Assembly: GCF_000422845.1 (NCBI RefSeq) | Contig: NZ_KE383934.1 | Coordinates: 1-64,000 of the forward strand | Length of the DNA stretch: 64,000 bases | Direction: 5' to 3' | Source: Oceanobacter kriegii DSM 6294 | GTDB lineage: Bacteria; Pseudomonadota; Gammaproteobacteria; Pseudomonadales; Oceanobacteraceae | Shown: piece after piece, positions 59,137-64,000 of the stretch | How positions within the stretch are numbered: the stretch's first letter is position 1 | Layout of the letters: each line of letters starts with the position of its first letter | Notes under the pieces: model-generated | The model's database searches: none | What the model was told of the DNA's origin: nothing | Seen by the model: only the letters and a program-made list of their open reading frames with translations | Position numbers and translations under genes: made by a program

Positions 59137-60492
59137 TCAGGCGTTCTCTGTCATCGACGTGATATGACGAATCTGTCGCTCGATCAGGGTGCGGCTGGTT
59201 TCCGGCAGGTCCTTGAGCCAGAAGTTGGATTGCTGGCTGCCTTGCAGGTTTTTTACCAGCGGGCCTTCGTCCCATTCCACACCGTATTCCGGTGGCAGTT
59301 CGGAAATCAGTACCTGACTGGCCAGCAAACGATTGTCTTCGCTGCGGCGGGCGAGGTGAGACGCCCAGTAGAGGGTGTCACCAATCAGGCTGTAATGAAC
59401 CGAATCGGTGGCGTTGTCTTCGTCGTGCTGCTGCATCGGTGCCAGCAGTACCGGGCCCCAGTGGGCGGCAATGCGGAAGCTCACTGATGCCATCAGCGGG
59501 TTGCGGCTTTGGGCATTCTGTAACAGTCCCAGACACAGTTGGGCGGCGTAAATACAGTGAATGGTGTCGCGTTCGCTGGATTCGTTCAGACCAAAAATCA
59601 TCACCAGGCCATCGCCCTGATAACGGTCGAGCTTGCCGTTATAGAGCTTCACTGCCTGGTTCATCAGGCGATAGTACTCGCTCAGGACATTGCCCAATTC
59701 TTCAGCGCTGAGGCGCGATTGCAGCACATCCAGATCGGAAATCTCGATGTAAACCAGAGCGCAGCGGTGGTAGGTCGCAGCCGTGACGGGTGGTTTGCTG
59801 CCTGAGTACAGGTATTTGCCCAGCGCCTTTTCAACCGCCTGACGTTGGCGTTGCTGCTGCTGGATACCGGCACACTGTTGATTCAGCTGCTGTAACTCTG
59901 CAATCGGCAGGGTCTGCTCTGGCAGGTCGAGTGGCTTGTCGTCCTGCCAGCGTTGCAAGGCCGCAGTCAATTTACGAATGTAACCGGCCATGCGCTCGGC
60001 CAGAAAATAGCTGATCAGTCCGGCCAGCATGGCAAACAGGCCGGTGGCGATCAGCGCCAGTGACAGGTAGCGGCCGCTCTGGCGGCTCACCGGAGCAGGG
60101 CTGATTTCCGCTTGCACCACACCTAGGGTGGCATCGTCGAGGGTGATGGCGCGGCTGATGATATGGGCGTCGTTCACCAGCGGGCCGGTTTCGGCCAGCG
60201 GTTTGCCTTCCGGGGTCAGTACCCGCAGGGCGCGAATGTCTTCGCCTCGCTGCCATTCTTTTACCGCCAGATTAAGGCTGATGCGGTCTTGCTGGATCAG
60301 GCTGGCGGAGAGGGTCTGGGACAGCCGTTCAATTTGCTGATAAGCGTCAGAACGTTGTTCGGACTGCAATTGGGTGTGCAGGTGGCTGTAGGTTAATAAC
60401 GAGATCAACAACCCCAGTACCAGAACCTGGGCAGCGCCGATAAATCCGCAAAGTTGACTGAATCCGAAGGTTCGCTTGGAAGCTGCTGACAT
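59137..60492 (-). CDS. Membrane sensor protein with a degenerate class III cyclase domain
   Basis: A 451-residue protein. Two membrane helices (about 16-36 and 143-165) flank a ~105-residue periplasmic domain that resembles Smp/YtjB/AhpA, a protein encoded next to serB in E. coli. A coiled linker (~200-225) leads to a class III nucleotide-cyclase fold (~240-420). The second metal Asp is present (QGDG, Asp294). The first is Glu250 (YIEISD), and the transition-state Asn and Arg are replaced by Tyr375 and His379 in GDTLYWASHL. It is therefore probably not an ordinary cyclase. I chose ATG 60492. The gene diverges from the serB group. Confidence 0.8.
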   Translation of the reverse strand: MSAASKRTFGFSQLCGFIGAAQVLVLGLLISLLTYSHLHTQLQSEQRSDAYQQIERLSQTLSASLIQQDRISLNLAVKEWQRGEDIRALRVLTPEGKPLAETGPLVNDAHIISRAITLDDATLGVVQAEISPAPVSRQSGRYLSLALIATGLFAMLAGLISYFLAERMAGYIRKLTAALQRWQDDKPLDLPEQTLPIAELQQLNQQCAGIQQQQRQRQAVEKALGKYLYSGSKPPVTAATYHRCALVYIEISDLDVLQSRLSAEELGNVLSEYYRLMNQAVKLYNGKLDRYQGDGLVMIFGLNESSERDTIHCIYAAQLCLGLLQNAQSRNPLMASVSFRIAAHWGPVLLAPMQQHDEDNATDSVHYSLIGDTLYWASHLARRSEDNRLLASQVLISELPPEYGVEWDEGPLVKNLQGSQQSNFWLKDLPETSRTLIERQIRHITSMTENA

Positions 60493-60953: not shown

Positions 60954-62186
60954 GTGACCGAACTGGTTCTTATCCGGGTATCCGGTGCCGACAAACCCGG
61001 CCTGACGGCCAGCATGACCGCTATTCTGGCTCAGTATGGCGTAACCATTCTGGATATTGGCCAGGCTGAGATTCACGACACCTTGTCTCTGGGCATTCTT
61101 GCCGCCGTTCCTGACAGCGCAGAATCTGCTCCGGTATTAAAAGATGTGCTATTCAAGGCACACGAACTGGGGCTCTCTATCCGATTTACACCGGTAACCG
61201 CCGAAAGCTACGAGCAGTGGGTTTCCGGTCAGGGCAAAAACCGCCACATCATTACCTTGCTGGCGCGTACCATTGAGGCCGAAGCCATTGCCCGGGTGAC
61301 TGCTATCGTGGCAGAAGCAGGCCTCAATATTGACCAGATCAGCCGTTTGTCTGGTCGGGTGCCGTTGGATCAAACTGACGAAGACACCCATACCCGCGCC
61401 TGTGTTGAGTTTTCCGTGCGTGGCGATGCCAACCAGAGCGAATTGCGTGCTCGCTTCCTGGAAGTGACCAACGAGCTGGGCGTCGACGTTGCCGTGCAGG
61501 CAGACGACGTTTACCGCCGCACCCGCCGTCTGGTGGCGTTCGATATGGACTCCACTCTTATTGAAGCTGAAGTGATCGACAAGTTGGCCGAGGCGGCCGG
61601 TGTCGGTGACAAGGTGGCAGAAATTACCGAACGGGCGATGCAGGGCGAGCTGGATTTCAAACAGAGCTTTGCCGAGCGCATGGCGCTGCTGAAAGGTATG
61701 GACGCCAGTGTACTGGAGCAAATTGCCGAGCAGTTGCCGATCACCGAAGGTGCCGAACGCCTGATCTATAACCTGCGCGCGTTGGGTTACAAGACGGCGA
61801 TTCTGTCCGGCGGTTTCACCTACTTTGGCCATTACCTGCAGAAGCGTTTGGGCATTGATTATGTGTTCGCCAACGAGCTGGAAATGGAAGATGGCCGAGT
61901 CACCGGTAATGTGATTGAGCCGGTGGTGGATGGTCAGCGCAAGGCGTTCCTGCTGCGTGAACTGGCTGAACAGGAAGGTATCAAGCTGGAGCAAACCATT
62001 GCCGTTGGCGATGGCGCCAACGACCTGCCAATGCTGGGCATTGCCGGTTTGGGGATTGCTTTCCGTGCCAAGCCGCTGGTGCGTGAGAACGCCCGCAACT
62101 CCATTTCGACCCTGGGTCTGGATGGTGTGCTGTACCTGCTGGGTTACCGCGACCGCGATATTCTGGAGCCGCCTGCGCAGGATTGA
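60954..62186 (+). CDS. serB: Phosphoserine phosphatase
   Basis: SerB carries out the last step of serine synthesis. The 410-residue protein has two N-terminal ACT domains (about 1-80 and 95-180), as in pseudomonad SerB, and a C-terminal HAD phosphatase domain. The HAD motifs are FDMDSTLIEAE (nucleophile Asp), LSGGFTYF and GDGANDLPML. The start is GTG 60954 with AGGAAC upstream. It is followed by a strong terminator. Confidence 0.96.
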   Translation: MTELVLIRVSGADKPGLTASMTAILAQYGVTILDIGQAEIHDTLSLGILAAVPDSAESAPVLKDVLFKAHELGLSIRFTPVTAESYEQWVSGQGKNRHIITLLARTIEAEAIARVTAIVAEAGLNIDQISRLSGRVPLDQTDEDTHTRACVEFSVRGDANQSELRARFLEVTNELGVDVAVQADDVYRRTRRLVAFDMDSTLIEAEVIDKLAEAAGVGDKVAEITERAMQGELDFKQSFAERMALLKGMDASVLEQIAEQLPITEGAERLIYNLRALGYKTAILSGGFTYFGHYLQKRLGIDYVFANELEMEDGRVTGNVIEPVVDGQRKAFLLRELAEQEGIKLEQTIAVGDGANDLPMLGIAGLGIAFRAKPLVRENARNSISTLGLDGVLYLLGYRDRDILEPPAQD

Positions 62187-62284: not shown

Positions 62285-64000
62285 TCAGAAGCTGCCTTCT
62301 TCCTCGAAGTTATAGCTCATGCCATCCTGGGCGGCCTGAACGTAGTCGCCCTGAACAAAGTCGGCACCCATTTGCCACAAGGTTGCGAGGGTGTTGGCGC
62401 TGTCGACCATCGGCACGATGATCTGCTTTTCCATTTCCTGCAACTTGCCTAGCATTTGCTGCAACTGCTGTTGGTTTTCGACCATGTTACTGGTGTAGGA
62501 AACATCGACCTTGATGAAATCAGCGGACAGGTGTTGCAGGTTTTTCACCGGATCAATGGCGCAGCCAAAGCGGCTGATACTGCATGGAATGCCCAGCGCC
62601 TTAAGGCTGGCGATGAATTTTTGCGCCTGCATCAGCATGCGGGAAGCATCGTCTTCGGTCAGCTGTACGACCAACACACCTTTGGGCAGTCGAGCAGCTC
62701 GGGTGGCAACGCTGATCCAGTTTGGCAGGCCTTCGTCGAGAATGGATGGGCCAGACAGGTTCAGGAATACCTTGGTGCTGTGGCCTTTCTGGTGATGTTC
62801 ACCCAAACGCTTGGCGGTGTTCAGGATCACCCAACGGTCGATCTTGCGCTTCAGAACGTCACTGAGGTCGTCGGCGTTCAAAACGTCACCGGCACTCATC
62901 AGGTGGCCGTTTTTGCTCAATTTGAAACGCGACTCGTAATGTTCGGTTTCTGAGCCCCGGAGGCTGATCAGCGGCTGGAAGGACAACATAAAGCTGTTGT
63001 CTTTCAGGGCTTCGGTCACCATCTCTTCGATGCTGACGGCACTGTCGCTGTCGTTGTTGCGCTGCTCTTCTATGTACATGCCAACGCTGTTGCCATGTTC
63101 CTGACCTTCAATATCGTGAGCGCGGAAGCAGGCGGTGTGAGCGTTTTGCAATACGGCGGTCGGGCTGGCGCTGGTCTCATTGATCAGGGCAATACCAACA
63201 CTCACGGTAATGGTGATGGTGCGATCGCCAAGGTCAAACAGCATGCCTTCGACGTGAGTACGCAGTTGCTCGGCTTTTTCCTGGGCATCAGCGGCGCTGG
63301 TGCTGGTCAGGATCAGGGCAAAGATGTCTTCACTAACGCGCGACAGATTGCATTTGTTGCCAACCAGTTTCCTGAGCGTATTGGCCAGCTCGGTCAGTAC
63401 GCTTTCAGAGCGGGCAATGCCATTGTTGGCGCGCAGTCGGCCAAAGCTATCGACGTTGATGTACAGCACTGCGCCGCGACCGCCGCTTAGCACGGATTGG
63501 TCGACGGCGACTTCCAGCTGGCTCATGAAATACGGCTTGTTGTAGAGGCCGGTGAGCACATCCAGATTGCTGATTTCCCGAAGCTTGGCTTCCAGTTGGG
63601 TGTTCTTTTCGTTCGATTGAATGCTCACCTGAGTGCAGCGTTCGTCGGCAAAACTGGCGGGTGAAAAGGTCATTCGCATCGGGAACAGGTCACCGGAACC
63701 GGACACACCAATGGTGTTGATTTCTTCGGTTTGGAAGCTGCTTTGGGAATACTGCTTGAGGAATTTTTTGAAGTCGGCCTGACCGGAGCCATCGACCATG
63801 TCGATCAGTGGCATGCCTTCGAGGTCATCGTTGGTTTCATAACCAAACATTTGCAGGTAGGCCGGGTTGCCAAAAATATGCATGCCGTCCTGAACATAGG
63901 CGACGGCATCGCGGGAGCTTTCCAGCAGCGCCTGGGCGCGCTTTTCGGCTTCGCGCAGGCGGGCTTCCAGAGCACGCTTGGCGCGGCGATTGCGCAGGTG
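62285..64000 (-). CDS. fimX: FimX-like degenerate GGDEF/EAL protein (5' end outside the window)
   Basis: The frame stays open from the ATG at 63883 to the window edge, reading a coiled segment (EARLREAEKRAQALLESSRDAVAY) that leads into a PAS domain (MHIFGNPAYLQMFGYE). A GGDEF-like domain then has SEDIF in place of GGDEF, and an EAL-like domain has YESRF in place of the catalytic YEALL. It should therefore bind but not make or degrade c-di-GMP. This matches FimX of Pseudomonas aeruginosa, a c-di-GMP receptor for type IV pili and twitching, also next to serB. The N-terminal receiver-like part is not in view. Confidence 0.85.
   Translation of the reverse strand, partial: HLRNRRAKRALEARLREAEKRAQALLESSRDAVAYVQDGMHIFGNPAYLQMFGYETNDDLEGMPLIDMVDGSGQADFKKFLKQYSQSSFQTEEINTIGVSGSGDLFPMRMTFSPASFADERCTQVSIQSNEKNTQLEAKLREISNLDVLTGLYNKPYFMSQLEVAVDQSVLSGGRGAVLYINVDSFGRLRANNGIARSESVLTELANTLRKLVGNKCNLSRVSEDIFALILTSTSAADAQEKAEQLRTHVEGMLFDLGDRTITITVSVGIALINETSASPTAVLQNAHTACFRAHDIEGQEHGNSVGMYIEEQRNNDSDSAVSIEEMVTEALKDNSFMLSFQPLISLRGSETEHYESRFKLSKNGHLMSAGDVLNADDLSDVLKRKIDRWVILNTAKRLGEHHQKGHSTKVFLNLSGPSILDEGLPNWISVATRAARLPKGVLVVQLTEDDASRMLMQAQKFIASLKALGIPCSISRFGCAIDPVKNLQHLSADFIKVDVSYTSNMVENQQQLQQMLGKLQEMEKQIIVPMVDSANTLATLWQMGADFVQGDYVQAAQDGMSYNFEEEGSF

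Follow-up and report, generated by a model that had tools for sequence, protein, structure and literature searches.

The window analyzed here, a stretch of 64,000 nucleotides from Oceanobacter kriegii, carries at positions 59137–60492 of the minus strand an open reading frame (ORF) of 451 codons, which encodes a predicted inner-membrane protein composed of an Smp-like sensor and a putative pseudo-cyclase. The gene described in the initial annotation was borne out by the structural model and by serB-adjacent orthologs across the whole family, including those of Oceanobacter mangrovi (L077), the closest named neighbour, and of a genome of the same genus as the window genome (L002/G005), both with 68% identity. 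The serB gene (60954–62186, plus strand), identified as encoding phosphoserine phosphatase from its ORF, a domain search and its neighbourhood, is located upstream of the 451-codon gene in the opposite orientation. A gene encoding a FimX-like PAS-GGDEF-EAL protein (62285–64000, minus strand), which extends past the end of the window, is convergent with serB, and the other flank of the 451-codon gene is occupied by a DTW-domain gene and uvrA. In the FimX-like protein, SEDIF replaces GGDEF and ESRFKL replaces the EAL motif, so that both signalling genes flanking serB in the window appear, from their motifs, to encode degenerate enzymes. FimX, a degenerate GGDEF-EAL receptor, is likewise a signalling protein without enzyme motifs, but it has an unrelated fold and no membrane sensor. 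At the other end of the window, a cluster of tRNA-Ser and tRNA-Arg genes was found at 2335–2705; a further tRNA-Arg was called there on the opposite strand, but it overlaps the others and is probably spurious.

The structure of the 451-residue protein was predicted with AlphaFold2 from a 26-row alignment that contained two stray sensor proteins (L147 and L149), giving a mean pLDDT of 86.6. The model shows helices at residues 11–66 and 70–81, four strands within residues 86–130, helices at 133–183 and 198–225, a cyclase fold at 237–430, and a last helix at 431–450. This arrangement fits a protein with a first membrane helix (around residues 13–38, 60379–60456, minus strand, as for all features of this gene), a periplasmic domain roughly 100 residues long (around residues 39–140, 60073–60378), a second membrane helix (around residues 141–163, 60004–60072), and a signalling helix and linker (residues 164–236, 59785–60003) leading to a cytoplasmic output. 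The limits of both membrane helices were placed approximately, from hydrophobicity and the model. The periplasmic domain was delimited by its conservation, the model and its homology to Smp; four of its residues, D69, R70, G103 and G124, are invariant in the window family, and its probable Cache or PAS fold is proposed from the family relation and the secondary structure of the model. The signalling helix and linker were placed using the model and a comparison with catalytically intact orthologs, which have a recognisable HAMP domain at this position. The protein ends with the class III cyclase fold (residues 237–430, 59203–59784), whose catalytic set is degraded, and a C-terminal helix (residues 431–451, 59140–59202), placed from the model and its conservation, that includes Q440.

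The cyclase fold proposed in the initial annotation was recovered by several methods. The protein matched the Pfam family Guanylate_cyc (PF00211) with 25.3 bits, above the cut-off of 21.9, and the family profile matched CyaB of P. aeruginosa with an E-value of 1.6e-15. The top Foldseek matches to the model were class III cyclases only, with E-values down to 6.6e-14, and in the best rows of a VIA-align comparison with solved cyclases, which include P. aeruginosa CyaB and Cya2, 180–192 residues were superposed at 2.3–2.9 Å with Z-scores of 21.9–22.6. CyaB (PDB 3r5g), a class III adenylyl cyclase, thus shares the cytoplasmic fold with the window protein, but has all of its catalytic residues and a membrane part of the MASE2 type.

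The catalytic residues were assigned by alignment on CyaB and on intact relatives. In agreement with the initial annotation, the first metal-binding Asp is replaced by Glu (E250, 59743–59745), the catalytic Asn by Tyr (Y375, 59368–59370, followed by the family-invariant W376), and the catalytic Arg by His (H379, 59356–59358). One further replacement was found, of the base-selecting Lys by Arg (R290, 59623–59625), and the second base-selecting site is S368. The second metal-binding Asp is kept in the window protein (D294, 59611–59613), but is missing in the close relatives L002, L011, L012, L027 and L028, where it is replaced by Asn, Ser or Gly (Ser or Gly in L012, L027 and L028). E250 and R290 are each found in 16 of 17 members of the family alignment, and D294 in 15; the position of Y375 is occupied by Tyr, His or Phe, and that of H379 by His, Gln, Thr or Arg. 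The conserved residues of the window family lie elsewhere (W376, H344, D289, N285 and Q440), and the catalytic positions vary, so that the cyclase domain appears to be conserved, yet not as an enzyme. The stretches GDT-x-x-WA, AAHWGP and LYNGxLD are also conserved in the window family, and because the first two surround the former active site, a small-molecule role or a new catalytic role may exist.

The resemblance of the sensor half to Smp/YtjB, also put forward in the initial annotation, could not be seen in the window protein alone but emerged through its relatives. No SMP_2 match was found in the window protein at E < 10, nor did it match the NCBIfam YtjB model, YtjB being a protein of 214 residues without an output domain. 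However, orthologs of the window protein matched SMP_2 above the cut-off, the family HMM matched YtjB with 61.6 bits (E-value of 1.1e-17), and an hhalign comparison between the window family and two Smp proteins gave an E-value of 3.6e-7 and a probability of 93%. Among NCBIfam models, the ortholog L138 matched YtjB best, at 39 bits, a score under the curated cut-off. In E. coli, as the initial annotation pointed out, ytjB (smp) neighbours serB; the two genes diverge, as do the window gene and serB. These comparisons argue for a distant homology between the sensor half and E. coli Smp/YtjB (Pfam SMP_2, Cache clan), a membrane sensor whose periplasmic domain is related but which lacks the cyclase half; an Smp of this short kind was also found in G193. 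A survey of Cache domains published in 2016 noted that SMP_2 alone among the Cache families lacks an output domain and placed it closest to the sensor domain of BarA/GacS (PMC4822843); a BarA/GacS-like ancestry would be another origin for SMP_2. The genome of the window contains in addition an 804-residue ORF (L031, G000:C14:91708-92115) that matches SMP_2 with 39.7 bits and also resembles the GGDEF-EAL neighbour, and SMP-type sensors thus appear to be fused to a c-di-GMP module too.

The order was sampled evenly and 81 serB loci were inspected, in a survey that had been proposed at the outset and that greatly widens the case. The link with serB across species was upheld, a homolog of the 451-codon gene being divergent from serB in 50 of the 81 loci; at serB loci without the gene, the upstream ORFs were mostly unrelated. 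The full D, K, D, N and R set was present in five of these 50 homologs, which belong to two families (f17 and f22). Among all loci collected, D, D, N and R were kept in 5 of 124 serB-adjacent proteins, again in two families, the 119 others including two Smp-length proteins without a cyclase half. The counts do not include five proteins (L033, L106, L137, L183 and L145) whose label as non-serB-adjacent proved from the gene tree to be an artefact of distance or ORF extension, nor four doubtful ones (L054, L056, L163 and L215). A HAMP domain is combined with a wholly intact cyclase in the serB-linked proteins L045 (protein positions 267–448), L047 (275–464) and L222 (293–476), among others. Free-standing SMP_2-HAMP-cyclases of Gammaproteobacteria (L034, L158–L162 and others) share the sensor and cyclase architecture but are not located beside serB, and D, D, N and R were intact in all 18 of them. 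The C-terminal Gln corresponding to Q440 was kept in 115 of 124 serB-adjacent orthologs versus 10 of 18 free-standing cyclases. In eight free-standing SMP-type cyclases from two genera of the same family (L037, L038, L039, L041, L043, L052, L053 and L075), the base-selecting Lys is replaced by Asn while the other catalytic residues are intact; judging from this replacement, their substrate specificity may differ.

No partner gene was conserved at every locus. Many loci, though not every one, have FimX nearby, and it was rejected as an obligate partner, as it adjoins serB without this gene in Marinobacter and others, and as genes of the 451-codon type also occur without FimX. Gene position hints at a possible role shared with SerB, and at a possible one for the products of serB. 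Separately, several metagenome-assembled genomes labelled Chlorobi or Chlorobium (L133, L142, L144, L154 and L156) encode a SerB that is 60–64% identical to gammaproteobacterial SerB, which may reflect gene transfer or mis-binning.

The loss of catalytic residues has not followed a single pattern. The first metal-binding Asp is replaced by Glu, Gln, Arg, Lys, His, Ala, Tyr or Ser, depending on the clade, the assignment in the most eroded orthologs relying on an uncertain alignment. One genus of the window's own family (g3) is intermediate, with D, K, D, T, H and R in L030 and D, K, D, D, H and Q in L036. In a tree of SerB, whose deep forks are not resolved, intact lineages branch among partly intact and degenerate ones, and the degenerate state must have changed at least four times, some of these changes being to loci without the gene. 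As the replacements of the first Asp differ between clades, repeated independent loss of catalysis is probably the simplest reading of these alignments; the direction from active to dead is taken from the function of the fold rather than from a rooting of the tree.

Orthologs adjacent to serB were also found in dozens of Pseudomonas species. The one Pseudomonas ortholog scanned (L123) matched SMP_2 above the cut-off but had no Pfam cyclase match. An earlier profile comparison was circular, as it contained shared rows, and was replaced by comparisons with a Pseudomonas-only profile, whose entire length could be aligned in hhalign with the serB-adjacent cyclases that are intact (probability of 99.7, E-value of 4.3e-27) and also with the window family (E-value of 3.8e-16). 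The predicted C-terminal half of the Pseudomonas ortholog, modelled by AlphaFold2 from an alignment that included four window-family rows, matched CyaB in Foldseek with an E-value of 1.2e-8. Profiles and model together indicate that the Pseudomonas orthologs carry a cryptic cyclase fold, presumably dead, that is not seen by Pfam. They differ from the window protein in a more eroded pocket and a long acidic linker. In P. aeruginosa, where we take PA4960 to be serB, PA4961 is the ortholog by gene position. A PAS domain is assigned to residues 53–166 of PA4961, which lies beside FimX (PA4959), in PMC8694187. A literature search on bacterial pseudo-cyclases and on the functions of YtjB and PA4961 returned nothing useful in the papers searched.

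We then considered whether the cyclase half is maintained. In close pairs, its dN/dS (Nei–Gojobori, several dS values being saturated) was mostly 0.01–0.05, with 0.15 for L001/L002. In almost every pair that could be measured, the value was lower than, or close to, that for the sensor half. Mean column entropy in the window family was 1.30 for the C-terminal half versus 1.73 for the N-terminal half. The pseudo-cyclase half is therefore under strong purifying selection, and for the clades compared the low dN/dS and the lower entropy exclude a relic that drifts freely.

Taken together, these results are best explained, with somewhat better than even confidence, by a serB-linked Cache-type receptor whose pseudo-cyclase acts through its conformation or through protein contact and not through cAMP synthesis. 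The only further class III cyclase encoded in the genome is CyaB-like and intact, so the 451-residue protein is not needed for cAMP synthesis. The Cache-like, Smp-type domain between the two membrane helices would sense a periplasmic or membrane cue and transmit the signal via the second membrane helix and the long cytoplasmic helix to the class III cyclase fold, which would no longer produce a cyclic nucleotide. Most likely, the pseudo-cyclase would alter its conformation or dimer state and bind a protein partner, perhaps through the C-terminal helix with the conserved Q440.

The initial annotation had considered that the domain may bind a nucleotide as a receptor. The degenerate pocket could hold ATP, GTP or a cyclic mononucleotide or dinucleotide and report through the dimer, and the conserved fold and pocket stretches of the window family, as well as the retention of D294 and R290 in most members, are in keeping with this; the FimX-like neighbour, a degenerate protein of the c-di-GMP type, is presumably a receptor like FimX of P. 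aeruginosa, and dead-enzyme receptors would thus occur in the neighbourhood. However, close relatives have lost the second metal-binding Asp, which speaks against metal-nucleotide binding as something these proteins share, and in Pseudomonas, as in many further orthologs, erosion extends to the entire pocket. Nucleotide binding can therefore not be what the group as a whole does, and we regard this explanation as unlikely. Slow cyclase activity, or a different phosphoryl transfer, in which Glu and Asp would bind the metals and Tyr and His would stand in for Asn and Arg, is improbable. Glu can bind metal, and Glu in place of Asp at the metal site can leave weak activity, while the near-constant E250 and R290 and the strong constraint on this half would fit an active domain; but both transition-state residues are replaced, and differently in sister species, and with the second Asp also variable the pattern is unlike a conserved active site.

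Class III cyclases are dimers, and the presence of a single, intact CyaB-like enzyme in the cell raises the idea that the window protein pairs with it, regulating or completing its site as in mammalian C1/C2. As both the metal-binding and the transition-state residues are degraded, the protein would supply neither half of such a site, making this pairing quite improbable. A C1-like half-cyclase, which keeps the metal half and has lost Asn and Arg, was likewise judged unlikely, given the variable second Asp and the Glu at the position of the first. Lastly, the cytoplasmic half could be a decaying, functionless relic, with the sensor half alone being of importance, as in E. coli Smp. The progress of erosion across the order and the 214-residue Smp proteins of E. 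coli and G193 speak for this, but the low dN/dS, a cyclase half more conserved than the sensor half, a reading frame that is intact in all orthologs, and the widely kept C-terminal Gln all speak against it, leaving it very little probability.

If the protein is indeed a receptor with a non-catalytic cyclase output, its history may be reconstructed further, although only tentatively and with less than even confidence. The serB-linked lineage would have originated from an active SMP-HAMP-cyclase, would have lost catalysis several times independently, and would have persisted across Pseudomonadales, Pseudomonas included, as a signalling protein with a pseudo-cyclase, with E. coli Smp as the end state from which the dead cyclase was cut off. 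The serB-linked relatives carry the "rest" beyond the SMP_2 sensor, which is likely the half missing from E. coli Smp, and this history, if true, would explain the origin of the "cut off" SMP_2 sensor. It would also be a bacterial example of a second-messenger enzyme that was turned, more than once, into an output without catalysis. A non-catalytic class III cyclase is probably hidden in a conserved gene beside serB in most sampled Pseudomonadales, many Pseudomonas included, a gene that has so far been filed as encoding a hypothetical or PAS protein (PA4961). A single gene position offers a natural series, from the active enzyme through single-residue losses (L030 and L036) to a fully eroded pocket, in which the conversion of a cyclase into a regulator can be tested.
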